Source: Desulfobulbus propionicus (GTDB taxonomy: Bacteria; Desulfobacterota; Desulfobulbia; Desulfobulbales; Desulfobulbaceae). From it: a stretch of 64,000 bases of DNA. The stretch lies in contig PDTD01000003.1 of NCBI GenBank assembly GCA_002748755.1, positions 1 to 64,000 on the forward strand, written 5' to 3'. The first letter of the stretch is position 1; each line of letters begins with the position of its first letter. Positions 5,037-52,954 of the stretch are shown in pieces. The notes under the pieces were generated by a model, which saw only the letters and a list, made by a program, of their open reading frames with translations, made no database searches and had not been told where the DNA came from. The position numbers and the translations under genes are program-made.

Positions 5037-5053
5037 ACTTTTTAAAGGAAAGC

Positions 5054-12776: not shown

Positions 12777-12911
12777 CTTATTTTTCCCTGATGTTCCTGT
12801 TTTTCAACATTATTTCCGATTAGGGCCCATGTCCGGTAGGGTTAACGAGCGCATGTTATACTGTAGCTGATAGGCTTCAGCATAACGATCTTCCCCTTAA
12901 CGGAGGTACCC

Positions 12912-13298
12912 ATGATCCAAACATACGCCCACCAAAAAGAAGTAGATGAAAACCGGTTGAGCCTCAAGACTATTGAGTCATTGTTCACAAATCTTATTAG
13001 AGAAGGAACAAACTGTTCCCACTTTGAATCCGAGATTATTGTTGAAAAAGCCAAAGAGGTATTCGCTATTGGCGATCGCACAGAAAGGAACATATTACAA
13101 TCAGGCCAGATGATCTGGACAGCTCTGGATATCGACGAACCACCAGGGAAACCTCTGGAAGATTGTAAACTGAAGAGAATAATACTTACCCATATCAATC
13201 CCAAAGAAGACGCAGAAGTAAGAACAAGGTACAATCGCTCAGCAAAACGTCAGCAACAGATCAACCGCATGGCTGTTGAAGCCCTGGTTAGCTTTTGA
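12912..13298 (+). pseudogene. DUF1670-like protein, C-terminally truncated
   Basis: 128 residues resembling the N-terminal part of DUF1670 proteins: CS-FESEIIVEKAKEVF, a LQSGQMIW segment, DEPPGKPLEDC and KEDAEVR in the expected order. Full-length members are roughly twice as long and continue into a helix-turn-helix region, absent here. The frame ends three codons after a GTTAGCT at 13287, which may be the left boundary of a gene cassette. The cellular role of DUF1670 is not established; a DNA-binding or mobile-element role is often assumed. The family call comes from recognised pattern only. Confidence 0.5.
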
Positions 13299-13309
13299 AG
13301 GACAAAAGT

Positions 13310-13777
13310 ATGACTAAACGAAAATACTTCCTAAGATTATTACTTATATGTACATTAATCGGAATGTTTACATATATTGGAAGTATATCAGGTTGTTCGC
13401 AAGATCAAACAGTTATCACACTTTTAAAAGAATCTCTAATACTCTGTGATAAACCAACAGTGTTAAAACTCGAACAGCCTCTCCAGCGCACAAAGAGATC
13501 TCTTAGCATTCGCATGCAACTGAATGAGGCATGGATACCAGAACCACCATGGAAAGATATTAAACTGCAAGATGGTAAGTTAGTGAGAATTACAGCTACT
13601 CTGATTTCTGATAAAGGAACACATTATTACCCAATGATAATTGGTGCTGGAGGTGAGCTAGACATTCGTTTCTACGATTCGGTTCCCAAGGATACAAGAA
13701 TAGTAAAAATTATCCTTAGTTCCACGCATCCGTTAACAGCTCAAAACGTAATGTGGGTTGACTGGAATCCCAAATAG
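13310..13777 (+). CDS. Predicted lipoprotein of unknown function
   Basis: 155 residues with a lipoprotein signal: positively charged MTKRKYFLRLL, a hydrophobic stretch, and a lipobox-like SISGC, so the mature protein would begin at that cysteine and be anchored to a membrane. The rest is about 120 residues of mixed beta character without a recognised domain. ATG 13310 is chosen because GAAGGA lies 7 bases upstream; the TTG at 13295 would include the ribosome site. It sits alone between a GTTAGCT and an attC-like hairpin, so it may be the cargo of an integron-type cassette. Confidence 0.65.
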   Translation: MTKRKYFLRLLLICTLIGMFTYIGSISGCSQDQTVITLLKESLILCDKPTVLKLEQPLQRTKRSLSIRMQLNEAWIPEPPWKDIKLQDGKLVRITATLISDKGTHYYPMIIGAGGELDIRFYDSVPKDTRIVKIILSSTHPLTAQNVMWVDWNPK

Positions 13778-13780
13778 TTC

Positions 13781-13839
13781 AGCTAACGAATAAGGCTAGA
13801 TTGTGTGAGCGCAGCGAGCCACAATCTGAACCGTTTATT
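13781..13839 (+). other. attC-like hairpin at a possible gene-cassette boundary
   Basis: The sequence begins AGCTAAC, the exact reverse complement of GTTAGCT at 13287-13293 on the other side of the lipoprotein gene. It contains the stem AGATTGTG/CACAATCT around the loop TGAGCGCAGCGAGC and ends GTTTATT. Matching RYYYAAC-like and GTT-like core sites flanking a promoterless single gene are features of integron cassettes. The right core site deviates from GTTRRRY and no integrase is in the window, so it could instead be a terminator-like hairpin. Confidence 0.4.
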
Positions 13840-14223
13840 GAACAAACCCGGTTATTATTATAGAAAAGAGCTTTTTGAAAGAGGGGTTAACCGCAGTCAT
13901 TACGATGTACGCAATGTTCATCCCCGTCACAGATTAAAATGGGAATAACTGGTTTAAAACCAGGTCTTCTTGGTGACAAGCACAATCAGGAATACTTGCA
14001 CCGAGGTATTGAGGAAGCTGCCATGGAGTAGTTTCCTCCGTCATTTTGGTATCCAAATCATATGATACTTGCATTCCCATCATAAGTGACTTACAATTTT
14101 CTTGTTTTTCATCGCAGACTCCTTGGTGTGAGGTTGAGCGATTCTCTGTAAACCGAGCCTCTTCTTTTTTCTTGAATCGCCTATTATTTAGGGTTTTTCC
14201 GTAAAGACGGGAGGTAGGAGAGC
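13835..14223. other. Stretch without a confident gene; two small open frames
   Basis: On the plus strand an open frame of 37 codons (13835-13948, ending HPRHRLKWE) continues from the hairpin and could be the tail of a gene interrupted upstream. On the minus strand a 49-codon frame (14083 to 13934) contains DCACHQED. It begins at ATG that overlaps the stop of a 10-codon frame preceded by AAGGAG. Neither resembles a known family. The remainder shows nothing recognisable. Confidence 0.25.
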
Positions 14224-14441
14224 TAACCCGGATATCTCATGAACATTTTGATTTTTTGATAAAAATAGAGAATAACAGATATATATGTGTTCATGAGCAA
14301 GCTCACATTTGAAAAGAGCGCACCCAGGGTCAGCCCATAGGGAATCTTCTTGGGAAGTATTTTACAAACACATATACCCTCGTATTATGCGTTACCAAAT
14401 CTTACCAACCTGGCAACCTGAGCTGATGAGAAACCCTGGCT
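14224..14441 (-). repeat. MITE-like dispersed repeat, full-length reverse copy
   Basis: On the plus strand it runs from TAACCCGGATATCTCATGAA to CTGAGCTGATGAGAAACCCT plus GGCT, so the repeat is inverted here. The ends are imperfect inverted repeats. It is 218 bases long, very close to the copy at 254-475 although the interior has diverged. Confidence 0.75.
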
Positions 14442-14574
14442 GCAAGAAAAGAGTATGGAAGAGGCGTTTGAGTACGTTTGAGTACGTTAGTCTCTCGCTC
14501 TATGCGTAGAGCCTTCATCAAGGCCATCCAGCGATTGATACGGGAAAACTATTGAACTTTTTAAGGAGAAGATA

Positions 14575-36497: not shown

Positions 36498-39400
36498 ATG
36501 AAAAAAAGCACTTCTCATCAACTCATATTAGAATCTCTTGAAGAACGTGTCTTCTTTGACGCAAATCCTGTTATTATTCTGGAACCGGCTGATGGCGGCC
36601 TGGAACCTGCGAGCCCTGATGGCGCCGCCTTGCAGGCAGAAAGTGATGCCGCCGCCGGTGCAGAGGAGCCAGCAGCCGGTGCAGAGGAGTCGGCGGCCGG
36701 CGCTGAGGCGGGGCAGGCTGATGGTGAAGAAAAGACAGAGGGTGGGGCCGCTGGTTCAGGCGAAGTCTCGGCCTCTGACGATGCCCTGGCAGAGGTCGAG
36801 GGCGGGCAACAGAAGGTGCCGGACACTCCTGTTGAGGAGCCGTCCTCGGATGAAGGAAATACCGTGGCCGCAGAACAAAGCTCTGATGACACGCTTGGTA
36901 CCGAGTCGCCAGCAGCAGAAGAGGGGGCAACAGTCCCAGTGGACCCCTTTGTGGGGGAAGATTTTACTTTTACGGTCTCTTTTGACAACACCACTGGAAA
37001 CCCTACTGTCTATGGGCCTTATATTGACCTGGTCCTTGACGGTGGCCTTGACGGAACGGAAGCCAGTAACGATGGCATTTCTTTTGTGGGGGCCACATAT
37101 TTAGGTGCTGAGGTGCAACATGGGACTCCCCAGACAGTGGACGCCACTGGATCAATAATCCATCCCTATGCAAAGGACGCAGCTGGTGACCCCTTGGTCG
37201 TCACCGGCTTAACAGAGGGAGATGTGTTTGTCAGCTTGTTGATGCCTTTTGGCTCCTTTGCCGGTGGTCAGCCTCCGGCCGAGGTCGAGGTGACCGCCCA
37301 CATGAGCGAAAATGCGGATGTGGGGACACCTCTGGACGTCGATGTGATCACCGGCGCCATGTACGGAACCGATCCGCTTGATAATCCCACCGTTGATAAT
37401 CCCTTACGTGGGCCGGGTGATGGCCTTCAGGCCTCGACTCAGTCGTTCCTGCCCGAGGTCATTGCCTTTAACACCGATATCAATGTTGCCTCTGTGGACT
37501 CCGATTGCCAGGAACAACACGGTCCTTATTCTGACAGCCGGAATGTGGAAAACAACCATCAGGAGATTCCCACCGGTCCCAATTTCCCGGCTCAGTATAT
37601 AACAACCATAGATATAGCGGACACTCAAGAGGTGGGGGGACAGGAAGACGATGGACGGACCGGGATGGTGTATACCCAGCATGTGTCGACCTCTGTGTTT
37701 TATCTGGGGAACGTCTCCGTTGTTGACAGTAGCGGTAATGCTCTGGCGTATACCATTCTCAATCAGCCTGTAGGTTCGGCAGGCGGCGATCTGGTGCTGC
37801 AGTTGCACGACGCGGTGACTGGAACCGGGGCAAATGATGACGTTGTTATCACCTATGATTTTTATGTTCCTGAAAACACAGGGGATGCTGTTCCGACACC
37901 TATTTTAGACCCGGTGAATGCCGACGATGAACATATTATCAATGACGGTGAGATCACCTACCTTTGGGACCCAACAGATTCCAATGATGATCAGGTGATT
38001 GCAACAGTTGATGCCGAGGTGGACAAGGATGGAGTTTTTTCCAATGCGCCAGATATTGATGACATTTCTCATGCCGAGGCTATAACCATTCAAAAAGACC
38101 ACGAACTCGTTACTGATATAGGAAGCAGCGGTTATACACCGGGTGATACGGTTGAATTTACACTTGATTTTCAGATATCTGACTACTTTGCCTTTGGCGA
38201 TGATCCCGGTGTTGCTGGGGATGATTTTGGCATTGTAGACAGCGTCTACAACGGTCTGAAACTCGAAGATGACGCTGGGAACACCTATCAGCCGGAAATT
38301 ACGATTTGGGAAGACGGTCAAGTAATTGGCAGTATGTCCCTCACTGCAGCAGCAGCGGGCAGCATGTTATGGACCACCCCAGGCAATAATGGTGACCTGC
38401 TTTATCATTATAACCTCCATGCAATACTCGCAGCAATGGGTGTTCAGGACGGTATCCTCTCAGGTGGTGGCAGCAATGGCCCTACCCATGGGCAAATTAC
38501 CTACAGCACTACCATTCAGAACACCTACGCACTCGGATATAATTATACTGGAACTGGAGAACTTAATGTTGATCAGGGTGATTACCTCAGCGCAGGTGGG
38601 ACGACAGATGTAGAGATCTTTGGTGATGTCTATGAAGAAGACGGTCAACCGCCTGGGTTCACTGGTGAGTCTGAGTCGGATGAATCCTGCGATGGTCTTG
38701 GAATCGTGACAGGATCGGTTGGCAAGGATATTTATGCGATCAACGGGGTAACAGACAATACTCTGTGGGAACGGGACGATTCCGGACGGGTGCATATTTC
38801 AGCCGGTGATGTCGTGTCATACCGTATCACCTATGCTCTGCCTACCTCCAGTACAGAAGATTTTGAGCTGGTCGATTATCTGCCCTCGCCTGTGTTTGAT
38901 GCCACTGATCCTGATTTAGATGGCCCACTTTCGGGTTGGCAGTATAGTGCAGTTGATAATTTGGATGCTGGCTATTGGTTTCTTTTAGGAGGTGCTGGAA
39001 ATCATACCTACGTCCCAAACCATCAAGCTGCAGTAGCGGATTCTGCTAATAATTCTGTAACATTTCACTGGGATGATTATCATGATATCGCCAACAACGC
39101 TCAGCAAGTTAGCCTGATTCTCAGCGTGAAAGTAGACGATGCTGCATTTACCGATGGCCTGTTCCTCACCAATCAGGTGACCGGAAGAGAGCTGAGTACA
39201 GAGCAGGAGTGGACCGAAACCAACGCAATCATTCAAATAGTTCTTGATGAGCCAGAGCTTGAGATTACGAAAGGGGTGGTCGAAACAAATAACTCTGCAG
39301 GTATTCTTGATGGCCCGTCGTCCCTTGAGCCTGGTTTTGTCTATGATGCAAATCTGAGCGGCATTGATGCCGGTGATCTTGTGACCTATTGCATCACCGT

Positions 39401-42400
39401 AGAAAATGTGGGACAAGCTGCCGCGTATGATGTCTTTGTAGAGGACTCCCTCCCCAATAACTTTGCCTACTACGGGGGGCTCAGCGTCACTGACGGAGAT
39501 GGAAACCCGGTGAACTACACGGTGGGAGGGGATGGTTCGGATACGGCTTTTTTTACCGATGGTATGAGTATCTTGGACCCCATACCAGCAGAATCTTCAG
39601 CAAACCATGAGGATATGTTGTATATCTGGTATAACCTTGTCGCTCTAGACTCCGTTGGCCCAGGTGTAGAGTATACCAATACCGCAGAAGTCACCAACTA
39701 TGCAGTCGTTTCCGGGGGGGACAATTTTGTTGCGAATACCGATTTGACTGATGATGCCGATGTTACCATTGCTGCCCCCTTAGTAGAAAAAACTGTGACC
39801 GGCACCAATCAGAGCCATACACAAGATTTGAATGTGGCCATAGGTGAAATTGTTACCTACAAGGTAGAGATCACGGTGCCGGAAGGAGAAACGCAAAATG
39901 TGTTTTTTTATGATACCCTGGACGATGGCTTGGCTCTTGTTGCTGTCGATTCAATCAGTGCCTCACCATATCTTGCGACAACTCAAACGTCGTGGAATGA
40001 TATCCTAACCAACCATCTCATTGTGGACAATGATGGAACAACTCTTTCGCTTGATTTTGGTACGATAACCAACAGTAATCGAAATAACGGTGCTGCAGAG
40101 AAGATAACGCTCACCTATACCGCAGTGGTCACCAATGTGGCGGGAAATCAGCGTGGAACAGATCTGGAGAATGATGCAGAGTGGCATGGAAATGGCAAAG
40201 AGTTGGCCACTGATGCTGCCTCTGTCAATGTGGTGGAACCTCAATTGGAGGTGGAAAAAACAGTTTCAGACCCCAACCCCGATGAGGGGGATCTCGTTAC
40301 CTTCGAGATTGTTGTTACCAATGAGACCAATGCCAACGGGGCGGATGCGTTTGAGGTTGTCTTAACAGATGTACTGCCGACTGGATACAACTATGTTCCT
40401 GGTTCTTGGAACGTGAGCCAAGGTCTTCCTCCAGATTCCATCAATGACACTAATCCCCAGAACTTGGAAGTGACCTGGAACACCTTTGCACAAGGCGAGA
40501 GTGCGACCATAACCTTTGCCGGCCAAATTGGCGCAGGTGTTGTTGCCGGGACTGATTTGACCAATACTGCCAGTGTCAACTGGTCCAGTTTACCTGGAGA
40601 TCAAACCACGGCTCAATCAACCCACAATACTGTCTCCACAGAGAGAACCGGTGATCCAACTGACCCCGGAGGGAATGCCAACGACTATAGCGTTGAGGAC
40701 GATGCCCAGGTGATGGTTGCAGGCGCGATCGACAAAGTGCTTTCCAGCCCCGGCACCGAGTATACCATCGGTGATATGGTGACCTACACTATTACAGTCA
40801 CTCTGCCAGAATCACAGGTCAATGATTTTCATGTTATTGATGCGCTTCCAACAGGTCTGGTGTATCAGAGCCATACAGTTGATTCCAATGGATTCAGCGG
40901 CACTTTGCCCTCAGAAACTCTTTCTCAAAATTCAAACCAGCTCGATTTTAATTTTGGCTCTTTTCAGCTCCCAGCTAATAACGATCCAACCGATGACAGT
41001 TTTACTATTGAGGTTGTTGCCCAGGTTGGCAATTCCCCTTCAAACTTAGATGGTCAGACGTTAACCAACCATGCTTCCATGAGCTATGAGGGGCCTAGTG
41101 GTAGTGATGTCATTGTAGACGATCCCACAGATCCCCAGATACAGATTGTGGAGCCCTGGATAGAAACGGAAAAGACCGTCACCCCTTCAGGGGGGAATAT
41201 AGCAGAGGTAGGAGTCGGGGATACATTGACCTACACAGTCACCCTCACCAATGGCGGTAACGCCACGGCTTATGAGGTGAACTTTTCTGATACCCTGGCC
41301 CCCCACACAACCTTTGGGGGAGTAGTTTCGGCGACCATTGACGGTCTTGGGGTGAGCCTGGGAACCACAGGTGACCCCAATAATGATGGCAGTCTTATCA
41401 CCTTTGAGGACGAAAGCTGGGACCTTGATCCCGGTTCCGTGCTGAAGCTTATCTATACTGCGACAGTGAACGATGATGCTGTTGTTGATGGGCACTACAC
41501 CAACACCGTGGATGCTGACTGGTCAAGCCAAGACGGAACGGTTGGTACAGAACGGGTGTATGATGAGGATGACGGCATTGATTCGATTGTTGATTCCGGC
41601 CACTATGCTGATCGTGATGTGGATACGGCAACCTTCAGCATACCTGGGGTGACTATCAGCAAGATAGATAATACGGCCTCTGCTCTCATTGGTGAGGAGA
41701 TTAGCTATGTTCTCACCATCAGTTCTCCGCAGGGGACAGTCAGTCAACTCAGCATTGCAGATGTACTGGGGGCTGGACTGGTCTATAACAACAACGCCCA
41801 GATCAGCTACGATAATGGTATGAGCTGGGCAACCAACATGCCTGTTGTAGGAGGAACCAATGACGGCACTGCAGAAGTGACCCTTACCTGGGATTTGGGG
41901 GATACGTTGATCACTTCAGCTAATCATATTCTTATTCGCTATACTGCCCAGGTGGCTAATGTCACTGGAAACACGAGTGGCAGTACGCTGGCAAACACCG
42001 TCACTCTGGAGTATGAAGACCTCGCAGGCGACACCCAGAGTTCGACTGCTACAGAGAGTTTTGTGATAAGAGATCCTCTGGAATTGAACCTGAGCATTGG
42101 TGATCGTGTCTGGTACGATCTGGATGCCGACGGGGTGCAGGACGCTTCCGAGGTTGGGCTGAGCAACATTACGGTTACCCTCTTTAGTAGCAATGGCTAC
42201 GAGATTGCCCAGGTGGACACGGACAGTAGCGGCAACTACCTGTTTTCCGGGTTGAGCCCAAACGATTATTATGTTGTGGTTGATGCGGCGGATCTCCCTT
42301 CGGGTATGGTGCAGACCTGGGATTATGATGATACGGACCCTGCCGGGACATTCACAACCCCGCATGCCAGCGGTATTATAACGCTTCAAAGCGGCCAATC

Positions 42401-44165
42401 CGTTTTTGATATTGATTTTGGGTATACCGGCACCGGTACCATTGGTGAGAAGATCTGGGAAGATAGTAACGGCAATACAGTGGATGACCCAGGAGAAGTC
42501 GGCATTGCTGGGGTTACGGTCACTGTTACCGGAGATTTTAATAATGATGGGGATTTAGATGACCCTGGGGATGTGATGACCACCATAACGGATGAAAACG
42601 GTTATTACAGTTTTACCAATTTGCCCTATGGAACCTATACGGTGGAGGTGGATACCGCAACCCTTCCTGTAGGCATGGAACCCACCACGGACGGCGATGG
42701 CCTGGGCACCCCCAACAGTGTGACGGGGCTGCTGAACGAGCCGGTGAATAACAATTTCAATTTTGGCTATCAACAGAACCGTGCCATTGGGGACTATGTC
42801 TGGAACGATCTCGATGGAGATGGAATCCAGGATGCCAATGAATCCCCGTTGGCCAATGTCCAGGTGACACTGAGTGGGGATTTTGATGGTGACGGTGATA
42901 GAGAGAGCCTGACAACCACCACAGACGAGACAGGGCACTATCTTTTTGATGTCAATAATAGTTTTGGCAACCTGTTCCCCGGCGAGTACGTTATCACTAT
43001 TGATCCCTCCTCCCTACCTGAGGGGATGGTGCCGACCTATGATAATGATGGCCTGGCCAGCCCGCATAGTTCCACCCTGATTTTGGGTATCTCTGACGTG
43101 AACCTGGAACAGGATTTTGGCTATCGGGAAACTGGCTCCGTTGATGAAACTGGCTCCATTGGTGATACGGTCTGGTATGATCTTGATGGCGACGGGGTCA
43201 TTGATGCAGGCGAGGAAGGAATAGCCGGGGTTACAGTAACCCTGACCGGGGATACAGACGGTGACGGTATTGATGATGTGTATTTGCAAACAGTAACCGG
43301 TCAAAACGGCAACTATTTTTTTGAGCAACTGGTTTCCGGAGAGTACACTGTCTCCGTGGATACCTCCACTGCAGATCTGGGGGACTATACCGCGCTCTCA
43401 CCAACCTATGATCCTGATGGTGAGCTTGATATGCAGACCACAGTGAACCTTGGCCCTGGCGAGATAAATACCCTGATCGATTTTGGGTACCTTCCCTCCA
43501 CAGATGTTGATCCGGTCCCGCCACCTCCAGAAGAACCATTTCAGCCAGTAGTACCGCCGACCCAGGTACCAGTGACTGGAATTGTTCCGACTGGAGTGGT
43601 CCAGCCTGTTGAACCTTTTGTTTTTTCGTATGACCCGGTTTTTCATTCCCTTGTGGAAGGAGATAATCTGCGGGATGTGGATTCTTTCCTCTCAATGAGA
43701 GATGAGGAACTACCGTATTCTGATTCTTTGTTACCTGTCTGCCCCATGTACAGCGGCCATGCGGAGCCCGGGACAACGTTGGTGATTAGACTTTCTAATG
43801 CCCAGGGGGAACTGGTTGGGTCTGAGCTCGTTATGGCGGATGCAGGGGGCAACTGGCTGGCGACATTCAGTGGTACCCTGCTCTATTGCATGCCGCATCA
43901 TATTGAAATTTCTCAATATATGTCATCGTATAATATCAGCTCTGAAGGGGGATTTAATATGCGGACTTATTTTATGCCTGCCTTTGGCGCCTCGCCCTTT
44001 ACCACACCGGAGCTGACTCCGACCAACATTTTTGGGACCCGCGCCTCTGTGATGCTCCAGGCCTTAGAGCACCAATATGACCGCTCGGTAAGTCTGAGCT
44101 GGAATGATTATTACGACTATGAGATCATGTCGATCTCCATTAACCCATCGCAGGCAACGTTGTGA
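36498..44165 (+). CDS. Giant LEPR-XLL-like surface protein with DUF11 and SdrD-B modules
   Basis: About 2555 residues, intact. The N-terminus has ILESLEERVFFDANP (residues 10-24), a variant of the LEPR-XLL motif found at the start of very long exported proteins. An Ala/Glu-rich acidic region follows (about 40-150). Then come about nine Ig-like DUF11/isopeptide-type modules (e.g. VTNETNANGADAFEVVLTDV), next four SdrD-B calcium-binding modules starting near 1866, 1981, 2096 and 2220 (GDRVWYDLDADGVQD pattern). A Pro-rich linker and a C-terminal Ig-like domain end it. No Sec signal, RTX repeats, LPXTG or PEP-CTERM are seen. ATG 36498 has GAGGA 7 bases upstream. The export genes follow directly. 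Confidence 0.88.
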   Translation: MKKSTSHQLILESLEERVFFDANPVIILEPADGGLEPASPDGAALQAESDAAAGAEEPAAGAEESAAGAEAGQADGEEKTEGGAAGSGEVSASDDALAEVEGGQQKVPDTPVEEPSSDEGNTVAAEQSSDDTLGTESPAAEEGATVPVDPFVGEDFTFTVSFDNTTGNPTVYGPYIDLVLDGGLDGTEASNDGISFVGATYLGAEVQHGTPQTVDATGSIIHPYAKDAAGDPLVVTGLTEGDVFVSLLMPFGSFAGGQPPAEVEVTAHMSENADVGTPLDVDVITGAMYGTDPLDNPTVDNPLRGPGDGLQASTQSFLPEVIAFNTDINVASVDSDCQEQHGPYSDSRNVENNHQEIPTGPNFPAQYITTIDIADTQEVGGQEDDGRTGMVYTQHVSTSVFYLGNVSVVDSSGNALAYTILNQPVGSAGGDLVLQLHDAVTGTGANDDVVITYDFYVPENTGDAVPTPILDPVNADDEHIINDGEITYLWDPTDSNDDQVIATVDAEVDKDGVFSNAPDIDDISHAEAITIQKDHELVTDIGSSGYTPGDTVEFTLDFQISDYFAFGDDPGVAGDDFGIVDSVYNGLKLEDDAGNTYQPEITIWEDGQVIGSMSLTAAAAGSMLWTTPGNNGDLLYHYNLHAILAAMGVQDGILSGGGSNGPTHGQITYSTTIQNTYALGYNYTGTGELNVDQGDYLSAGGTTDVEIFGDVYEEDGQPPGFTGESESDESCDGLGIVTGSVGKDIYAINGVTDNTLWERDDSGRVHISAGDVVSYRITYALPTSSTEDFELVDYLPSPVFDATDPDLDGPLSGWQYSAVDNLDAGYWFLLGGAGNHTYVPNHQAAVADSANNSVTFHWDDYHDIANNAQQVSLILSVKVDDAAFTDGLFLTNQVTGRELSTEQEWTETNAIIQIVLDEPELEITKGVVETNNSAGILDGPSSLEPGFVYDANLSGIDAGDLVTYCITVENVGQAAAYDVFVEDSLPNNFAYYGGLSVTDGDGNPVNYTVGGDGSDTAFFTDGMSILDPIPAESSANHEDMLYIWYNLVALDSVGPGVEYTNTAEVTNYAVVSGGDNFVANTDLTDDADVTIAAPLVEKTVTGTNQSHTQDLNVAIGEIVTYKVEITVPEGETQNVFFYDTLDDGLALVAVDSISASPYLATTQTSWNDILTNHLIVDNDGTTLSLDFGTITNSNRNNGAAEKITLTYTAVVTNVAGNQRGTDLENDAEWHGNGKELATDAASVNVVEPQLEVEKTVSDPNPDEGDLVTFEIVVTNETNANGADAFEVVLTDVLPTGYNYVPGSWNVSQGLPPDSINDTNPQNLEVTWNTFAQGESATITFAGQIGAGVVAGTDLTNTASVNWSSLPGDQTTAQSTHNTVSTERTGDPTDPGGNANDYSVEDDAQVMVAGAIDKVLSSPGTEYTIGDMVTYTITVTLPESQVNDFHVIDALPTGLVYQSHTVDSNGFSGTLPSETLSQNSNQLDFNFGSFQLPANNDPTDDSFTIEVVAQVGNSPSNLDGQTLTNHASMSYEGPSGSDVIVDDPTDPQIQIVEPWIETEKTVTPSGGNIAEVGVGDTLTYTVTLTNGGNATAYEVNFSDTLAPHTTFGGVVSATIDGLGVSLGTTGDPNNDGSLITFEDESWDLDPGSVLKLIYTATVNDDAVVDGHYTNTVDADWSSQDGTVGTERVYDEDDGIDSIVDSGHYADRDVDTATFSIPGVTISKIDNTASALIGEEISYVLTISSPQGTVSQLSIADVLGAGLVYNNNAQISYDNGMSWATNMPVVGGTNDGTAEVTLTWDLGDTLITSANHILIRYTAQVANVTGNTSGSTLANTVTLEYEDLAGDTQSSTATESFVIRDPLELNLSIGDRVWYDLDADGVQDASEVGLSNITVTLFSSNGYEIAQVDTDSSGNYLFSGLSPNDYYVVVDAADLPSGMVQTWDYDDTDPAGTFTTPHASGIITLQSGQSVFDIDFGYTGTGTIGEKIWEDSNGNTVDDPGEVGIAGVTVTVTGDFNNDGDLDDPGDVMTTITDENGYYSFTNLPYGTYTVEVDTATLPVGMEPTTDGDGLGTPNSVTGLLNEPVNNNFNFGYQQNRAIGDYVWNDLDGDGIQDANESPLANVQVTLSGDFDGDGDRESLTTTTDETGHYLFDVNNSFGNLFPGEYVITIDPSSLPEGMVPTYDNDGLASPHSSTLILGISDVNLEQDFGYRETGSVDETGSIGDTVWYDLDGDGVIDAGEEGIAGVTVTLTGDTDGDGIDDVYLQTVTGQNGNYFFEQLVSGEYTVSVDTSTADLGDYTALSPTYDPDGELDMQTTVNLGPGEINTLIDFGYLPSTDVDPVPPPPEEPFQPVVPPTQVPVTGIVPTGVVQPVEPFVFSYDPVFHSLVEGDNLRDVDSFLSMRDEELPYSDSLLPVCPMYSGHAEPGTTLVIRLSNAQGELVGSELVMADAGGNWLATFSGTLLYCMPHHIEISQYMSSYNISSEGGFNMRTYFMPAFGASPFTTPELTPTNIFGTRASVMLQALEHQYDRSVSLSWNDYYDYEIMSISINPSQATL

Positions 44166-44183
44166 TTAACAAGGAGTAAGAGA

Positions 44184-46076
44184 ATGAAAAAACTGTCTAT
44201 AGTGCCTGTTCTTGGAGCTGCTTTTTGCTTCTCTCTGGCAGCTGTTGCGGCTGAGGCCGTTGAACTGGATCATGATACATCTTTTACAGAGCTTAAGACC
44301 ACTTTGCTCAAGCGGTATGAACCGCTGGTCAAGGATTTTTCCAGCTCAGAGCAGGGAGCGATGCAGACCATTACCCTGCCAGAAGAAGAGAGCACGCTGG
44401 AATCCTGGTGGCGTGAGTCGGTGAAAACACCTCTGACTGGTATGCAGGACTATACTGCACTGAACATGAGTAATTTATATGCAACCACGTTGGATAATTC
44501 CAGCCAGATCAAGGTGTTCAGTGCACTACCCCTGATACGGAAGACAACCATTCAGGAAGCGGACGGAGTGTTCGATACCTCTCTGTATCTGACGGGGAAA
44601 TATAATTCAATAAATGAACCCGTGGGTGATGAATTAAAAACCGGCGGGCCAGATCGATACGAGGAAAAATCAGGTTCTCTTAGTCTGGGATTGGAACGGA
44701 AATTTTTAACAGGTACGAAAGTTGCCTTGGAGCATACATTTGAATCCTATGATTCCAATTCAGAATACCTGGATCCTGAGGATCAGGGTATCTCGAAGAC
44801 GAGTGCCACTTTGACCCAGCCACTGTTACAAGGGATTGGACCGGACTACAACGGGGCTGTAGAGGAGCTTGCAAAGATTGACTACGCCAGCTCGGAAAAT
44901 GAGCTGAGGCGTCAGATCGATAGTCACCTGCTGGAGGTAACCCGTTCGTACTGGGGATTGTATATGGAGCGTTCCATTTACCTGCAGAAACAGCAGCTGG
45001 CCAATAAAGCTGCAGAGATTGTGGCCCAGATGGAAGAACGCAAAGATATTGATATTGAACCCAGCCTTCTGATACGTGCTAAATCTCAGATGTTTGCCCA
45101 TCAGCTTGAGGCAGACGAAGCCAAGTTTGCCATACTCAACGCCCAGTCGAGAATCTGGGCGCTGACTAATTCGCCTGCCTTTGTGAACGGATCCGGGTTG
45201 GAATATGTCACCGTTGAAGAACCCCGACATGGGTTGCCGCAGGAGAGCATGGAGGCAATCTTTATGACTGCGCTGCGCAAACGTCCAGAGGTCGAGCAAT
45301 CTGTACGACAACTGCAGTCAGCGCTCTGGCGGCATTATCGGGCCAGGAATGAGTTATTGCCCCAGTTGGATTTATTCCTGCAAACCTATGTGAAAGGCCT
45401 GGAAGGGGATTATGATCATGACGGGGCCTATCAGGATTCCTGGGATGAGGGGAACCCCAGTTACAGTGTGGGGCTACGGTTTGGATTTCCTCTGATGAAC
45501 AATGCGGCCAAAGCACGCGAAATGCGAAAGAAACTGGAGATAAGACAGCTACAAAGTCAGCTTGACACCACAGTGGCGAACATATTGCTGGAAGCCCAGA
45601 TTTCCTATCGTGAGATGGTAAAATACAATATGGCCATGAAGAGGCGCTATACTGTGGTTGAAACGACCAAGAAAGAGGTTGAAAATCTGACCAGTCGTAT
45701 TGACTACCTTATTTTGCAAAAACAAGAGTATGGTGGCATTCTCTATCGTCTCCTCGATGCTCTGGAACGTTTAAATCAGGCAGAGAAAGAGTTTTCAGCC
45801 AGTGAACTGACCTATAATCTGGCATTGGCTCAACTGCAGAGCGCCAAGGGCACCTTGGTTGAAGACTCTGGGGTTGTGATAGAGGAAACGGAAGAGAACG
45901 GGTATCCAGTCATAAAAATTCACCTGCGTGATGGCCAGGCCCCGGTCGATAAGCAAACAGCTTCGCTCACAGGTAAGCTGCAGGCTGGCGCTCAAGCCCA
46001 GGGCGCTGGTATAAAGATGCAGGTATCCGAAAAGGATGCGGCTTTGTATTCGGCCCTTGCCGTTGATGTGCAGTGA
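44184..46076 (+). CDS. TolC-like outer-membrane efflux protein
   Basis: 630 residues with a signal peptide (MKKLSIVPVLGAAFCFSLAA). The body has the TolC two-fold repeat of long helices and strands (for example NELRRQIDSHLLEVTRSYWG and VRQLQSALWRHYRARNELLP). These trimerise into an outer-membrane beta barrel with a periplasmic tunnel. It is somewhat longer than E. coli TolC, with an extra N-terminal segment of about 80 residues. It starts 18 bases after the giant gene with AAGGAG, and its stop overlaps the next start by 4 bases (GTGA), so they are co-translated. Confidence 0.9.
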   Translation: MKKLSIVPVLGAAFCFSLAAVAAEAVELDHDTSFTELKTTLLKRYEPLVKDFSSSEQGAMQTITLPEEESTLESWWRESVKTPLTGMQDYTALNMSNLYATTLDNSSQIKVFSALPLIRKTTIQEADGVFDTSLYLTGKYNSINEPVGDELKTGGPDRYEEKSGSLSLGLERKFLTGTKVALEHTFESYDSNSEYLDPEDQGISKTSATLTQPLLQGIGPDYNGAVEELAKIDYASSENELRRQIDSHLLEVTRSYWGLYMERSIYLQKQQLANKAAEIVAQMEERKDIDIEPSLLIRAKSQMFAHQLEADEAKFAILNAQSRIWALTNSPAFVNGSGLEYVTVEEPRHGLPQESMEAIFMTALRKRPEVEQSVRQLQSALWRHYRARNELLPQLDLFLQTYVKGLEGDYDHDGAYQDSWDEGNPSYSVGLRFGFPLMNNAAKAREMRKKLEIRQLQSQLDTTVANILLEAQISYREMVKYNMAMKRRYTVVETTKKEVENLTSRIDYLILQKQEYGGILYRLLDALERLNQAEKEFSASELTYNLALAQLQSAKGTLVEDSGVVIEETEENGYPVIKIHLRDGQAPVDKQTASLTGKLQAGAQAQGAGIKMQVSEKDAALYSALAVDVQ

Positions 46077-46936
46077 TAAATGGTACGCTCTTGATGCCCC
46101 AAAGGCTTCTGCAGCATATCTGTTCTTTTGTTGGCCTTTTGCTCTATGGTGTTCTGGCTTCTTATGGTGAGCATACAGCCGGAGCAGTAACCTTAGAGAG
46201 CTTTCTGGAGCCTGACAAGCAGGTGGATATTGTCCCGGTGAACAGGGACATTGTCACGAAACTGCATGTTGTAGAAGGGGACTCTGTCAAAAAAGGCCAG
46301 CTTCTGGTTACCCTTGATCTCGGGGTGCTGAATGAAAGGAAGAATATCGCTCAAATCCTGGCCACAAACCATGGACGATTAGACTCTGCCCAGGCGCTGG
46401 TCAATATACGACAAGCGCATCTTGAAAATCTCAAACGTCTTGAATCCACTGGTCACGTGCGCCAAAAAGAGCTTGAAGTAAGCAGAGCAGATCTCGCTGT
46501 TGCTCAGGCAGACCTGTTGACCGCCCAGGAAGAACGAACCATTCGCCAGGCAGAACTGCGCCATATAGAGGCGCAGATAGAGGTAAAAAAGATTCGCTCT
46601 CCCATAGATGGACTGGTGTCAAGAGTGTACAAAACCGAAGGAGAACTCGTAGGACTCAACGATGAAGACGCCTTGATCAGCGTTGTCAGCCCCCACCCTT
46701 TGCATGTTATTTTTTATCTCCCCCATGCGTACGCAGAACAGATCGCAGTAGGTCAGCAGGTAGCCCTGCAGGTAGGGGTACCTGCTGAGACTGTTCTGGG
46801 TAAGGTGCTCTTTGTGGCCCCTCTCGTTCATCCTGAGAGCGGCACCATACGGGTCAAGATTGGTTTTGCTCAAGGGTTTGTTGCCCAAAGCGGTATCCGT
46901 TGCAGTTTGGATACGGATCAGCTGACTGCCCCATAG
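46073..46936 (+). CDS. Periplasmic adaptor (HlyD/RND membrane-fusion family)
   Basis: 287 residues. An N-terminal hydrophobic segment (ICSFVGLLLYGVLASYG) is followed by a biotinyl-lipoyl-like half (VVEGDSVKKGQLLVTLD), a helical hairpin of about 90 residues, the second lipoyl half (KKIRSPIDGLVSRVYKTEG) and a beta barrel. Adaptors of this type bridge an inner-membrane pump to TolC. Here no pump is encoded next to it. The GTG start at 46073 overlaps the TolC stop; ATG 46094 is an alternative. It is shorter than most RND adaptors and ends without a membrane-proximal domain. Confidence 0.85.
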   Translation: MINGTLLMPQRLLQHICSFVGLLLYGVLASYGEHTAGAVTLESFLEPDKQVDIVPVNRDIVTKLHVVEGDSVKKGQLLVTLDLGVLNERKNIAQILATNHGRLDSAQALVNIRQAHLENLKRLESTGHVRQKELEVSRADLAVAQADLLTAQEERTIRQAELRHIEAQIEVKKIRSPIDGLVSRVYKTEGELVGLNDEDALISVVSPHPLHVIFYLPHAYAEQIAVGQQVALQVGVPAETVLGKVLFVAPLVHPESGTIRVKIGFAQGFVAQSGIRCSLDTDQLTAP

Positions 46937-47064
46937 ATGAGCGGTCTTCATGTCTTAGACCGCCTCTCCTGCTTTTTGTTTGCCTGTTTATGCCTGATCC
47001 CTGAGTATGGATACCCAGGCAAAGGCAACAGCATGTACGCTCCCACAATCATATAAGCCAGCCT

Positions 47065-48906
47065 ATGACGGTAACATCTCCCCTCTTAATTTCTCCTCCT
47101 GTTGACTTGAAGGCCGCAGGTTCCACCATGCGGGCACTGCAGCAGGCGCTGGAGGAGCTTTCTCTCGTTCGGGACAACAGCGAACAATTGTACCAGTGTG
47201 TGGTCGATTTTCTGGTCGCTCACACAGGGGCAGGTGTAGTTTCCATAGGACCTTGCGGGACATCAGGGCAGGACGAGAATGTCTTTCGGGTGACAGATTT
47301 AGGCTACAGTTGGGCGCCTGACATCCTCAAAACCCTCCACCAGGGTGGGGCAAGAGCTATATCCCGGAACCAGGCGGCCGTTGCCCAGCTGGGGGGGCAG
47401 GATAGGTTTCTTCTTATTGCTGTTCCTTTGACCGGGCCGCAGCAGGGCCAGGCGCTCTGTGTGGCCATAGATACGGTAGAGCAGGCATTTGAACCTTTTA
47501 TGGTCATACTGGAATTGGTTCGGCAATGTCTGGCTCTGGCCATCCGGGATGTCTCCCCGGCCGGTGCGGCCGATTTTTCAGCAGAGCTGCGGGACGCTGT
47601 GGCCGCTCCTTTGGAGAGCGGCGATCGGAAAAAGGCCGGGCCCTTTTTTGTGCAAAAAATCAAAGAATATTTCCAGGCAGATGTCGTTATGCTGGCCCCA
47701 CGGCCTAAAGGGGTGGGCGGACAGTTTATATTGCATAGCTCCGTCTCCGGCTTGAATGAAAGTGCCCCTCAGATGAAACTTGTCAAGCAGGTTATTGATG
47801 AGTGCCAGCAAGAGGAAAAGATGCTCACCTGCAATAGTCCCCTGATTCCGACAGGCAGCATGCATTCCTTCCTGCTGCGGGACATGTCAGCAGCTTTTTT
47901 TGTTGACTCCTCTGTTTGTTTTCCCCTTATCTCCCATGACGGGACTGTGCAGGGCGGGATGATTGTCTGCTGGAAAAAGGCTGGAGAGAGCGTATCCAAA
48001 AGAATGGAGGCCTTTACCCAGGCAGCCCCCCTGATCGGGTCATTTGTCTCCTGGCTTACTCAGCCCGCCTATGGGGGGCAGCTCAGGAAATCCTTACTCA
48101 ATGCCAGGCAGCGCACCGGTATCTTAGCGGGTCTGGTCTGCGGGACCATTCTGTTGGGCATGCTGCCTGTACCCTTTTCCGTGACAGGAACCTGTGTTCT
48201 GGAACCTCGGCAGACACGTTTTGTTGTGGCCCAGTTTGATGGCGTTTTGAAACGCGTCTATATTCAGCCGGGCACAAAGGTACAGAAAGGCGAATTGCTC
48301 GCAGAGTTTGATGAGCGAGTTATCGAGCTTGAGATCAATGCTCTTCAGGCGGATATGACCAAAACAAAAAAACTGCAGGATGTTCAGACCGCCGCCGGGA
48401 AAGCGGCCCTGGCTCAGATGGCTGGACTGGAACGGCAGGGGCTTGAGGAAAAACTGAAGCTTTATCAGCAGAGGCTGGCCCAACTCTCTGTCCACAGTCC
48501 GGTGGAAGGTATTGTTATCAGTGAAAATATGGAGCGGGCAGAGGGAAGCCCCATCAGCAGGGGACAGGGGCTTTTCGAGATTGCACCCCTTGATATAATG
48601 ATGGCTGAAGCCCATATAGCACAAGAGGATATCAGCTACGTGCAGACAAAGGCGCCCACAGAAATCAGGCTGGAATCGTTTCCCGGTAAAACCTTGAAAA
48701 GTTCAGTGTATAGTATCTTTCCACGTTCTGAACTGCGCGGCGGCAGGAATGTCTTTCTGGTTGAGTCACTGCTGGAAAACCCGGACGCTCTGTATAAACC
48801 TGGGATGCAGGGAGAGGTTTCAGTTATTGTGGGTAAAAAACCTCTTTTCTGGAAGCTGTTTCGTCGGCCCTGGATGGCTTTTCAGAAAACCTTTCTCAAT
48901 GATTAG
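47065..48906 (+). CDS. Hybrid protein: GAF-like N-terminal region plus HlyD-type adaptor
   Basis: 613 residues. Residues about 20-330 are soluble and GAF-like, possibly two modules (QCVVDFLVAHTGAGVVSIG and KIKEYFQADVVMLAPRPKG). One membrane helix follows near 352-372 (AGLVCGTILLGMLPVPFSV). The rest is a HlyD-type adaptor: first lipoyl half VYIQPGTKVQKGELLAEFD, a short helical hairpin, second half VHSPVEGIVISENMERAEG and a barrel. The arrangement puts a sensory-type domain in the cytoplasm and an adaptor in the periplasm. No kinase motif is seen. It lies 128 bases after the first adaptor and before the M50 gene. Confidence 0.82.
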   Translation: MTVTSPLLISPPVDLKAAGSTMRALQQALEELSLVRDNSEQLYQCVVDFLVAHTGAGVVSIGPCGTSGQDENVFRVTDLGYSWAPDILKTLHQGGARAISRNQAAVAQLGGQDRFLLIAVPLTGPQQGQALCVAIDTVEQAFEPFMVILELVRQCLALAIRDVSPAGAADFSAELRDAVAAPLESGDRKKAGPFFVQKIKEYFQADVVMLAPRPKGVGGQFILHSSVSGLNESAPQMKLVKQVIDECQQEEKMLTCNSPLIPTGSMHSFLLRDMSAAFFVDSSVCFPLISHDGTVQGGMIVCWKKAGESVSKRMEAFTQAAPLIGSFVSWLTQPAYGGQLRKSLLNARQRTGILAGLVCGTILLGMLPVPFSVTGTCVLEPRQTRFVVAQFDGVLKRVYIQPGTKVQKGELLAEFDERVIELEINALQADMTKTKKLQDVQTAAGKAALAQMAGLERQGLEEKLKLYQQRLAQLSVHSPVEGIVISENMERAEGSPISRGQGLFEIAPLDIMMAEAHIAQEDISYVQTKAPTEIRLESFPGKTLKSSVYSIFPRSELRGGRNVFLVESLLENPDALYKPGMQGEVSVIVGKKPLFWKLFRRPWMAFQKTFLND

Positions 48907-49016
48907 GATGGATGACGAACTTGCCCTGGCAAGGCAGGACAAGGCGGCATGAGGTCAAGCGGAATCCGGCACCATAGACGGACATTGCAACCTTGATAAG
49001 ACAGGAGAGGGACTGC

Positions 49017-51179
49017 ATGGAATCTGAGAGTACAGCTCTTGCCCCAACCTTGCGCTCTGATCTGCATTTTACCATTCAAAATGGAACTGCCAGATGCTAT
49101 GTCCTTGAGGACCCACTACGTCAGAAATTTTATCGTATTGGCAGAGCTGAGTATGTTCTGTTGACTACCTTGGATGGCAAGAGGTCGTTAAGCCAGGCTA
49201 TTGCCACAGCCAATGAGCTGTTACAAGAAGATATCTTTGATGAAAAGACGGCAGAGATAACGTTGCAGTGGCTCATCCATAATCAGCTTATACTGGACAG
49301 CAATAGAGAGTCGGTAGAGGGCCGCCTCCGGGTGGACAACAGGGTGCGTCAGCAGAAGCTGCTCTCTCAATTCAATCTTATAACCATCAAGATTCCCCTA
49401 TTCAATCCTGACCCCTTTGTGGAAAAAATGTACCCCTGGCTGGGGTGGCTGACGGGGCGCTATTTTGCCTGTATCTGGGCGGGTATTGTTTTCTACGGCG
49501 GCCTCCTGCTTTTTCAGCAGGCAGATGCCTTTTTACAGACAGCGGCCATCGCATTGGCCCCGGGAAACATTTTTTTTCTGTGGCTGTCCTGGTTTCTCTT
49601 AAAGCTTCTTCACGAAGCCTCCCATGCGTTGACCTGCTATCGCTACCATGGCAGGATTTATGAGGCAGGACTCCTCTTTATTGTCTTTTTCCCCCTCACC
49701 TACGTGAACGCCTCCTCAAGCTGGAATTTTCCCGGCAAATGGCAGCGTATGCATGCCGCCTTTGCCGGTATCTATGCAGAGCTGTTTGTTGCCGGGTTTG
49801 CAGCTCTCATTTGGGCGGAGAACCCGCATACCGTGGTTGGCAATCTTGCCCATAACCTGGTGCTGGTGGCCGGTTTTTCTTCTCTTTTGTTCAACATCAA
49901 CCCTCTTATGCGTTTTGACGGCTACTTTATCCTCTCTGATATGGTGGGTATCCCCAATCTGTATGGCCGAGGTCAGGAGTTTGTCACCAGCATTTGGAGG
50001 GCCATGTTTTTTGGTCAATGGTCATACATCCGGCGTTTGTCTTGGCGGCAGGAACTGTTTATTGCCTGCTACGGGATAGCGGCCTGGTGCTGGCGGTTTC
50101 TAGTGATGACCTTTCTGTTGCTCCTTGCGGCCTCCGCTTTCCAGGGTTACGGTATTTTTATAGCTCTTGTTTCTGCAATACTGTTGGTTGGACCACCTTT
50201 TCTCAGGCTGAAAAACACCTTGGTCAGCATGCGGGTCGAAAACCCGTCTGGCTTCAGGCGTTTTTTCCTGGTCTGTGCTCTGGGTGGTTTGGCAGGGGTA
50301 CTGTTGGTGCAGGTTGTGCAATGGGAGCAGGAGATCAAAGCTCCGGCTGTTGTACTCTATGAAGATGAAGTGCTGGTTAAATCCCAGGTTCCCGGTTTTC
50401 TGGAAACCATGTATGTCCATGCCGCTGAGGAGGTTGTTGCCGGACAGCCGTTATGTTTGCTGAGAAATGCGGAGTTGGTGGCAGAGGAGGAACAGTTGCA
50501 GGTACAGCTGGCAGAAGTTCTTATCAACAAACGTCATGCGCATATGCAGGAGGATATTACCTCCTATCAGATGTTTGAGGAGAACTCAGCGGTACTGCTC
50601 AAGAGAGTACGAGCGTTACAAAGTGATATAGAGGACCTCCAGATTGTGGCGGAATCAGCAGGGACAGTGCTTGCCCACCGGTTGGACGATTTGCAGGGGA
50701 CCTATATTCAAAAAGGCCGCGAAGTGATGTCCATTGTCTCAGAGGGGCGGAAAAAAATTCTTGCCTCTGTGGATCAGGAAGCTATTGCGGCTTTTCGCCA
50801 GCGAGCCGATGAACAGGTCGAAGTGATTATCCCTTCCATGAACCGGTCCTCCTTTTTTGCCCGGGTGGTTCGCATTGCCCCAAAAGCTGAAACCCTGGTG
50901 CCGGACAGGGGATTGAGTGCAGCCTACGGCGGGCCCCTCGCGGTGCGGCAGGTGGTGAATGAAAAAAGCCCAGGTGGTGGGGATGCGGTGGAGTTTGAGT
51001 TTTTTTCACCTCGTTTCTCGGTGGAACTGGCGGTTCCTCCCCAGAAAGCCGGTCAGCTTCTTGTTGGCCAACTGGTCACCATTCGTCTGCCGGGACAGCG
51101 TCTCAGTCTGTGGCAAGTCATAACAACCAGTCTGTACGACTATTTTGCTCTTCGACTGGACCCTACCGCTGCCAGGTAA
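49017..51179 (+). CDS. PqqD-like / M50 site-2 protease / HlyD hybrid membrane protein
   Basis: 720 residues. Residues about 20-110 resemble a PqqD/winged-helix peptide-binding unit (FYRIGRAEYVLLTTLDGKRS). About six membrane helices (roughly 140-435) hold the M50 metalloprotease motifs HEASH (199-203) and NPLMRFDGY (295-303, Asp301), so zinc binding looks intact. Residues from about 450 form a HlyD-type adaptor (VPGFLETMYVHAAEEVVAGQ, then IVAESAGTVLAHRLDDLQG). It could clip, hold or guide a substrate in the inner membrane; that is inference. ATG 49017 follows AGGAGAGG; TTG 48993 is less likely. It is the last gene of the cluster. Confidence 0.85.
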   Translation: MESESTALAPTLRSDLHFTIQNGTARCYVLEDPLRQKFYRIGRAEYVLLTTLDGKRSLSQAIATANELLQEDIFDEKTAEITLQWLIHNQLILDSNRESVEGRLRVDNRVRQQKLLSQFNLITIKIPLFNPDPFVEKMYPWLGWLTGRYFACIWAGIVFYGGLLLFQQADAFLQTAAIALAPGNIFFLWLSWFLLKLLHEASHALTCYRYHGRIYEAGLLFIVFFPLTYVNASSSWNFPGKWQRMHAAFAGIYAELFVAGFAALIWAENPHTVVGNLAHNLVLVAGFSSLLFNINPLMRFDGYFILSDMVGIPNLYGRGQEFVTSIWRAMFFGQWSYIRRLSWRQELFIACYGIAAWCWRFLVMTFLLLLAASAFQGYGIFIALVSAILLVGPPFLRLKNTLVSMRVENPSGFRRFFLVCALGGLAGVLLVQVVQWEQEIKAPAVVLYEDEVLVKSQVPGFLETMYVHAAEEVVAGQPLCLLRNAELVAEEEQLQVQLAEVLINKRHAHMQEDITSYQMFEENSAVLLKRVRALQSDIEDLQIVAESAGTVLAHRLDDLQGTYIQKGREVMSIVSEGRKKILASVDQEAIAAFRQRADEQVEVIIPSMNRSSFFARVVRIAPKAETLVPDRGLSAAYGGPLAVRQVVNEKSPGGGDAVEFEFFSPRFSVELAVPPQKAGQLLVGQLVTIRLPGQRLSLWQVITTSLYDYFALRLDPTAAR

Positions 51180-51335: not shown

Positions 51336-51545
51336 CATTAAGTTCATAGTCAGGGATGCAATCTGCTTCTGTGGAATACAGACTGCGCAGTAACCTCCTG
51401 ATATCATCCTTGTGTTATACCCCTGGCCGCTGCGTTGTCTTAGTGAGTATTCCAGACGAATCCGGCCACCCTGATTTTGGAGATAGCGACGTAAAGAAAC
51501 AACTGGTAGAGAGGTCCTTTTTGAAAACCATTCAAGGAGGATCTC

Positions 51546-52954
51546 ATGCCCTAAAAAGGTTATCTAAGTGCAAAATAAAAGAGGTGTTCCGCCTCAAATT
51601 TGAACAGGGTCACAGCAAGCATACGATATCAAGAAGCTGCGGTATCGGCAGAAGCACGGTCAATGATTATCTGCAACGAGCAAAACAGGCAGGGATTGTA
51701 TGGGCTTTAAATCCAGGAAAAACACGTCACCCTGAACCCGCTGTGGCAGGAGTATAAAGAACGACAGCCAGAGGGGTACCAATATAGCTGGTTTTGTGAG
51801 CATTACCGGAACTGGACTGGCAAGCTGGATCTGGTTGTGCCTCACCAACACCGCCGCCAGAAAGAAGCTTTTCGTTGACTATGCCGGGCAGACGGTTGAT
51901 ATCAGAGATCACCATACCGGGAAGATCAACTCAGATTTCGCGGTTCTTGGTGCCAGTAACTACACCTATGCTGAAGCCACAGCCAGTCAGCAGCTGGAAG
52001 ACTGGATCGGTGCCCATGTACGAGCCTTTGCTTTCTTCAAGGGGGTTTCTGAATTGGTTATCCCTGACAACGCTGAAAAGCGTATCAGCAAAGCCTGCAG
52101 ATATGAGCCAGACATACATCCCACCTCTCACGACATGGCACTTTTTACCAGATCGTGGTGCTTCCCCCCTGGCTTCGTAAGCCAAGAGATAAGGCCAAGA
52201 CAGGAGCAGGGGTGTTACTCGTAAAGTGTTGGATTCGGGCCAGGCTCAGGAAACACACCTTTTTCAGCCTTGCTGAATTGAAGCGCGAGATCGGTAAGCT
52301 CCTTGAGCAACTCAAACCACAAACCCTTTAAAAAACTGCCTGGAAGCAGGAAGAGCTGCGTTGAAGGACTGGATAAACCTGCCTTACAACCAACTTCCCG
52401 ATGTACCGTACGAGCTTTCCTACTGGAAAAAGGCCACTGTCCACATCGCTTACCATGGGAAGGTCGAAGGCCATTATTATTCAGTCCTGCACAGCTTGGT
52501 GAAAAAGAAGATCGAGATCCGCTCTCCCCAAAGGGTGGTTGCATGCTTCTACCGTAGCAAAGGTGTTGCCAGTCATCGACGAAATGCAAAAGGCGGTTGC
52601 CATACCACGGTCCGGGAACATATGCCCATGGAGTTTGTCAGCAACCTGATAGCATTTGCCAATATCGGGCCTGAGACGCTTTGTCTGGCTAAAACGCTGC
52701 TTGTTCAACGAGACCATCCCCAACAGGCCTATTGCACTCTGCTGGGTATACTTCGCCTTGGGAAAGCCTATGGGGAGTCACGCCTGGAATCAGCCTGCCG
52801 CCGGGCGCTGTCCATCCATGCTTTATCGTATCGCTCTGTGGCGTCTATTCTAAAAACCTGGCTGGATCAGAAACCGCTTCCGGAAACAGAGAAAAAACCG
52901 CTCAGCCATCCCATATTCGTAGGGCGGCCTATTCTAGGCTCTCGTCAGGTATAA
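51546..52954 (+). pseudogene. istA: istA transposase pseudogene (IS21 family)
   Basis: ATG 51546 is followed by TAA at codon 3, then the frame continues with KIKEVFRLKFEQGHSKHTIS and GIGRSTVNDYLQRAKQAGI, the N-terminal helix-turn-helix of IstA. A later frame holds the DDE core start (LFVDYAGQTVDIRDHHTGK) and another the C-terminal region (YNQLPDVPYELSYWKKATVH). Several frameshifts and an early stop mean it cannot be active. It was a DDE transposase acting with IstB. Confidence 0.85.

Follow-up and report, generated by a model that had tools for sequence, protein, structure and literature searches.

The closest described relative of the system studied here is the secondary SecA_DEAD / Peptidase_M50-HlyD / GAF-HlyD / HlyD locus that Kamneva, Poudel and Ward defined in silico in 2015, with SecA_DEAD proposed as the ATPase and the M50 protein as the membrane pore (PMC4452313). 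Its authors stated the broader role of the locus to be completely unknown, and the accessible part of their article names no cargo, the words adhesin, giant and LEPR occurring there 0 times (PMC4452313). Among the loci that they name is META1p2399-2402 of Methylobacterium extorquens AM1, the locus type with SecA (PMC4452313). LEPR-XLL, for its part, is covered in the accessible literature by single passages on an 8,000-residue Vibrio protein and a Limnohabitans transcript. In the open-access literature, a scope that leaves most subscription papers and preprints outside, we found no export route for LEPR-XLL-type proteins and no report of a link between LEPR giants and this machine, of a PqqD-like reader or of SecA-less lineages. 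Here, we analyse a five-gene cluster of Desulfobulbus propionicus (assembly GCA_002748755.1, contig PDTD01000003.1, positions 1 to 64,000 of the forward strand; these 64,000 nucleotides are called the window) that encodes a giant adhesin-like protein, a TolC-like protein, two adaptors and an M50-HlyD hybrid. The cluster is a variant of the 2015 locus, such that the machine is not wholly new, while LEPR-XLL-type giants go together with the M50-HlyD machine across genomes, an association that is new. We read the cluster, at a probability of roughly 0.6, as an export machine for the giant encoded first in it, belonging to a SecA-less lineage of the 2015 system.

The features of the locus are as follows.

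36498..44165, + strand: giant adhesin-like protein P0001, probable cargo; 2555 residues from ATG, 2564 from TTG at 36471
36498..36620, + strand: LEPR-XLL-like N-terminal motif LESLEERVFFDANP, candidate leader; score under the NCBIfam LEPR-8K cut-off
43113..44162, + strand: C-terminal 350 residues of the giant, common to linked giants (G105, L098, partly L110)
44184..46076, + strand: P0002, TolC-like outer-membrane efflux protein (OEP); OEP domain, signal-like hydrophobic N-terminus
46073..46936, + strand: P0003, HlyD/RND-type periplasmic adaptor; HlyD-type domains
47065..48906, + strand: P0004, second adaptor, GAF-type/HlyD; N-terminal region of ~340 residues, one hydrophobic segment, HlyD C-terminus
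48993..51179, + strand: P0005, M50-HlyD hybrid; N-terminus PqqD-like by kinship with another branch, predicted intramembrane metalloprotease, HlyD C-terminus
51356-52954, three short separate frames: transposase pieces, IS21-like by order; HTH, rve and Mu-transpos_C_2 matches

All five cluster genes are open frames, and coordinates confirm what a preliminary description of the window, made from its sequence alone, had given for gene order, the 2555-codon giant, the 18-base gap between giant and OEP genes and the 4-base overlap of the OEP and HlyD genes. Its three HlyD-type modules and TolC-like protein were likewise recovered by Pfam, with HlyD-type domains in P0003, P0004 and P0005 and an OEP domain in P0002. 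Domain scans found no inner-membrane pump of RND, MFS or ABC type among the five genes. The IS21-like pieces sit directly downstream of the M50-HlyD gene.

Like the 2015 locus, the window has an M50-like/HlyD protein, an HlyD/biotin_lipoyl adaptor and an OEP (present in some of the 2015 loci) and has no ABC transporter (PMC4452313); unlike it, the window's locus and genome are without a secondary SecA that could be found. The 2015 locus also has a second protein, with GAF and HlyD domains (PMC4452313), to which P0004 may correspond: its HlyD part is present, GAF being detected only in relatives. With type I secretion (HlyB-HlyD-TolC) the cluster shares HlyD adaptors and a TolC-like channel beside a giant repeat protein, whereas it has an intramembrane protease instead of an ABC transporter, three adaptor modules and a candidate signal at the N-terminus. 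P0005 resembles the daptide protease (NF041824) in being an HExxH membrane protease, the match spanning residues 34-391 of the 720-residue form (PqqD-like and M50 parts), and differs from it in its score (150 bits, half of the cut-off of 300), its fused HlyD arm and a presumed cargo that is a giant rather than a short peptide. Finally, the giant is like LEPR-XLL domain proteins (NF012209) in carrying an N-terminal LE.R stretch on a very long protein, and unlike them in that the window's copy scores 11.4 bits where the cut-off is 17. The preliminary view of a non-canonical export system holds in that there is no ABC engine; it had missed that the system, including a SecA-like ATPase, was published in 2015 (PMC4452313). 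As a whole, that interpretation is partly supported, and neither of the findings that it had named as refuting, a type I ABC transporter consistently linked to such clusters or M50-HlyD hybrids mostly without LEPR-XLL giants, was obtained.

Relatives of P0005 were found in 20 of 297 genomes of the phylum, which a family profile divided into 14 full-length M50-HlyD proteins and 6 distant ones. A scan of 84,980 species genomes gave 590 relatives or more; the analysis continued with the best 80, and later results therefore lean to the window's nearer kin. Among 103 loci inspected, 95 have a full-length M50-HlyD; the loci dropped were L120, which is split, and G282, G089b, G118, G015, G001, G077 and G253, which are distant or without the arm. 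Profile counts over the 95 loci gave GAF-type HlyD in 87, a further HlyD in 73, a SecA-like protein in 52, OEP in 26, DUF3467 in 17 and SapC in 9, all of them lower bounds, with many loci ending at a contig or flank edge. The loci span Planctomycetota, Verrucomicrobiota, Lentisphaerota, Pseudomonadota, Thermodesulfobacteriota, Myxococcota and Bacteroidota, a synteny across several phyla on which we reject chance neighbourhood of these genes, and the cluster is real and widespread. The window's gene order recurs in G105, where the adaptors have a DUF3467 gene between them and there is again no second SecA; the best DUF3467 match in the window reached only E 0.16. SapC-family genes occur at L142, L143, L149, L157, L163, L165, L170, L174 and L175, and both SapC and DUF3467 look like accessory parts. 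The genus mate G088 carries two M50-HlyD genes (L006, L023), both in SecA-type clusters and with 27-28% identity to the window's, so divergent that the window's copy appears to be of a separate line, perhaps a horizontal one. The M50-HlyD tree was a quick one with support from the Shimodaira-Hasegawa-like approximate likelihood ratio test only, and the two window-side clades are not firmly joined in it.

The association of giants with this machine is best judged from LEPR-8K, an NCBI curated model independent of the loci studied and hence the count to trust. At E<=0.01, 11 of the 297 genomes scored above the cut-off of this model, namely 8 of 14 with a full-length M50-HlyD and 3 of 283 others (Fisher p 3e-10), an outcome in favour of the preliminary description, which had proposed such a test of co-occurrence. 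Among the genomes with LEPR-8K and no full-length M50-HlyD, G082 encodes a complete secondary SecA and G135 part of one, at the edge of a contig, so that clusters there may be split across contigs, and G090 has a marginal 115-residue frame. A purpose-built motif profile, A2, matched 11 of the 14 M50-HlyD genomes versus 3 of 283 others, a count that includes 5 genomes used in the profile and becomes 6/9 versus 3/283 without them. In named M50-HlyD genomes, A2 matched at E<=1e-3 in 33/42 and 11/19 (five of the 19 fed A2, and L163 and 18 of the 80 lay outside the named-genome search). Inside the locus itself, a motif-bearing frame of at least 400 residues was present in 12 of 80 named loci. Seven edge-cut giants, picked since coordinates already indicated linkage, were extended, and each is one open frame that ends at the cluster and has, at residue 21-72, an LE.R.LLS[AG] stretch; their lengths in residues are 4,588 (L145), 9,829 (L165), 7,971 (L154), 8,581 (L170), 7,251 (L167), 15,071 (G153) and 9,783 (G252). 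For the L142, L174 and L176 giants, linkage was read by coordinates alone. Motif-bearing open frames of 18,012 residues (G331, L131) and 18,596 residues (G316, L126) were also listed.

The commonest unnamed neighbour, adjoining M50-HlyD or HlyD, is a protein of ~630-850 residues as read (median 678). It is SecA-like, with SecA_DEAD in 32/32 of those scanned and SecA_PP_bind and P-loop_SecA in 31/32, and 51 of 53 SecA-like proteins retain both Walker A (GEGK[TS]) and DE[AV]D, L158 being cut by the locus end. The claim that no NTPase appears in the cluster accordingly survives for the window's lineage and some others and fails for the system: with a SecA-like ATPase in 52 of 95 loci, the lack is a trait of the lineage. 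At L145 (11808-13982, + strand) the SecA-like protein is without Walker A and DEAD box, its M50-HlyD, GAF-type HlyD and HlyD neighbours being intact, and at L109 one cluster is flanked by two SecA-like genes (4710-6824 and 12467-14521).

For the window's genome, SecA_DEAD gave one match at E<=1, of housekeeping type (an 889-residue open frame, read as 850 residues), and neither the window's locus nor the genome, which is 90.7% complete, yielded a secondary SecA_DEAD protein without wing-scaffold. A tblastn search of the window's contig for a SecA remnant gave two matches of chance level, located elsewhere in the window, the better one at E 0.022. We extended the SecA_DEAD search to 39 genomes, picked mainly for having no SecA at the locus, and SecA was found in all 39. 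At least two matches occurred in 16 of 19 Planctomycetota, Verrucomicrobiota and Lentisphaerota genomes (some of them fragments, e.g., G308), and the secondary SecA of these genomes therefore seems to be located elsewhere. A single match characterised one clade consisting of the window, G105 and L098 (3/3 rows); a Beggiatoa-type clade near the window's (L099, L101, L113, L125; 4/4 rows); a separate group (8/8 rows, 7 genomes: G102 twice, G210, G089, G098, G281, G014, G117); and five scattered rows (L110, L148, L153, L155, L164). The simplest reading is that the private SecA was lost or replaced more than once, and the likeliest motor in SecA-less lineages would be the housekeeping SecA.

ABC ATPases are missing where classical type I secretion would place one. 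None lay within the cluster at any of the 95 M50-HlyD loci, and the window's contig (65,992 bp) holds 0 of the genome's 42 PF00005 matches at E<=0.001, as the preliminary description had anticipated. ABC genes occurred anywhere in the locus DNA at 10 of 95 loci (ABC profile built from 30 segments), with 13 such genes in 1.94 Mb versus 32 expected from the ABC density of the window's genome, a rough yardstick since the loci include other phyla. The closest approach is at L116: 12 bases past an OEP/HlyD pair downstream of M50-HlyD, an ABC gene begins.

The M50-HlyD protein keeps the marks of a protease. P0005 carries HExxH and NxxPxxxxDG; among full-length M50-HlyD proteins, HExxH is kept in 94/95 (the exception being L121) and NxxPxxxxD in 95/95, the last letter being A instead of G in 17/95, and judged by these motifs the protease site appears intact. 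Pfam PqqD and M50 (PF02163) gave no match in P0005 itself at E<=0.1, and PF02163 matched 27 of 29 alignment members of its family. The closest curated model, the daptide intramembrane metalloprotease NF041824, matched 29/29 alignment members at E<=0.001. Against PDB, the whole M50-HlyD profile retrieved mostly adaptors and biotin carriers, and M50 weakly (3b4r, E 0.036). For the N-terminus (140 residues), PqqD matched at E<=0.01 in 30 of 36 SecA-branch proteins, PqqD itself (3g2b, E 0.0068) was the top PDB match of that branch, and the N-termini of the SecA branch and the window branch are homologous by profile comparison (99.7%, E 1e-26); no PqqD structure came up in PDB when the query was the N-terminus of the window branch alone. 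A PqqD-like M50-HlyD N-terminus thus gains support from sequence comparison at family level. The hybrid proposed in the preliminary description is accordingly upheld for its HlyD part and M50 motifs; the idea of a PqqD-like reader of the giant's N-terminus is supported for the family and not for the window branch alone. In P0004 the HlyD part is present and GAF gave no Pfam match at E<=0.1, although 11 of 24 members of its family match GAF at E<=0.01. An RND-type adaptor model gives the best score for the HlyD parts of both P0003 and P0004, and type I secretion curated models stay under cut-off for the window's HlyD and OEP proteins.

The giant has the predicted make-up of a stalk-like adhesin, with four DUF11, four SdrD_B and five isopeptide-forming (RrgB D2-type) stretches. 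Its first 120 residues contain no strongly hydrophobic segment (19-residue Kyte-Doolittle maximum 0.86, too low for a typical Sec signal), and a simple RTX pattern gave zero matches, as had been claimed on both counts. A signal-like segment is absent in nine motif giants too. SecA-type giants have 9-41 RTX-pattern matches each versus 0 in the window's, and RTX absence is therefore no mark of the system. The claimed LEPR-XLL-like N-terminus stands as an LE.R-type stretch and falls short of the curated cut-off, which was passed by 9/9 relatives' N-termini, two of them (genomes of L099 and L125) unlinked to their cluster. The N-terminus from G105, the window's nearest kin, LELLEDRIFLDANP, is over the cut-off at 19.2 and lies on a 3.4-kb contig apart from the cluster contig; the window's giant is the weakest case for the motif. 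Its C-terminal 350 residues have 41% identity to G105, 39% to L098 and 34% over 119 residues to L110. Near the extreme C-terminus, W followed by S, D, N or similar occurs in 14 of 44 linked giants versus 4.1 expected, a pattern picked after inspecting the ends and hence a lead only, and the giant's C-terminus is a possible second signal.

PqqD-type domains bind leader peptides during peptide maturation. Given a PqqD-like N-terminus and a cargo without a Sec-like signal, leader recognition by M50-HlyD is the best inference, and we propose the following route. The giant's LEPR-type N-terminal stretch would serve as leader and be bound at the inner membrane by the PqqD-like domain of M50-HlyD, and the M50 site would probably trim it. 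The chain may then cross the envelope by way of the TolC-like channel and the three HlyD modules. The translocation motor would be a dedicated SecA-like ATPase in many relatives and, in the window's genome, most likely its only found SecA, the housekeeping one.

Several observations weigh against this reading. At 90.7% completeness, the window's genome may be missing a secondary SecA by chance. The window's giant is not listed by LEPR-8K at E<=1, and among 17 aligned motif-bearing N-termini the letters LEPR occur in 6 and the full LEPR-X-LL in only 2. PqqD matched 0 of 18 window-branch N-termini taken alone, and a SecA-branch member displayed in full scores 20.5 with PqqD where the Pfam gathering score is 23.4. 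The A2 motif was missed at E<=1e-3 in 17 of 61 named M50-HlyD genomes, and some matches are not giant frames; the misses include L098, closest to the window among its named kin, at E 0.22, with its giant cut by the contig end. Some of these misses are cut-off effects, L142, L165 and L167 being over 1e-3, yet the L165 and L167 giants were read directly. Planctomycetota are rich in motif proteins (47 at E<=0.5 in G335), and specificity is therefore weaker there, while in G210, G089, L099 and L125 the motif protein and the cluster are on separate contigs.

Of the competing explanations, the most probable keeps M50-HlyD, adaptors and TolC as a conduit and dispenses with any SecA, export being driven by the M50 part with the proton gradient or by cargo folding outside. 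Single-SecA groups at separate places of the tree (3 + 4 rows on the window side, 8 elsewhere) would suit it, and no recurring neighbour family resembles a motor, NTPases besides ABC and SecA not having been searched for as such; the frequency and intactness of the SecA-like genes (52/95 loci, 51/53 copies) lead one to expect an ATP-driven step, however, and with SecA present in 39/39 genomes searched we consider this SecA-free reading unlikely. Slightly less probable again is that the role of M50-HlyD is confined to maturation of the giant or of some other substrate, with the giant taking another inner-membrane route and HlyD/TolC forming an ordinary efflux pump. The closest curated model is indeed a biosynthetic protease, that of daptides, and the RND-type scores of P0003 and P0004 fit a pump, but the five genes include no inner-membrane RND, MFS or ABC pump, the linkage of parts and giants is conserved, and a signal-like segment is lacking in the window's giant and the nine motif giants.

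A cluster in decay, with an IS21-like insertion on its 3' side and a lost secondary SecA, would account for the transposase pieces at 51356-52954, and seems improbable in the face of five open frames, the same order in G105 (DUF3467 added), also without a second SecA, and tblastn matches to SecA in the contig that do not convince (best E 0.022). Least probable of all is classical type I secretion with its ABC transporter encoded elsewhere in the genome. The window's genome has 34 ABC_tran matches over cut-off, one of them only with in-frame neighbours, and all are on other contigs; of the fused exporters, three were scanned, one of which is MsbA, scoring over its cut-off, and the others SmdA/MsbA-related proteins, the type I models displayed being far under their cut-offs. 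We rejected ABC-driven type I secretion as the main explanation on these exporters and on the lack of an ABC gene inside the 95 clusters.

Export of the giant by its own cluster remains the explanation we favour. More broadly, and more tentatively, since we hold it for somewhat less than an even chance, the loci could reflect a widespread pathway in which a peptide-recognition domain, part of one protein with an intramembrane protease and an adaptor arm, reads the leaders of proteins of up to 15,000 residues much as the leader of a peptide antibiotic is read. A private SecA would carry out the export or, as in the lineage of the window, no ATPase would be dedicated to it. The SecA-less lineages raise the question of what powers the export step, and two partners that had stood apart, the LEPR-XLL-type proteins of many thousands of residues and the machine described without a cargo in 2015, each gain a testable counterpart.

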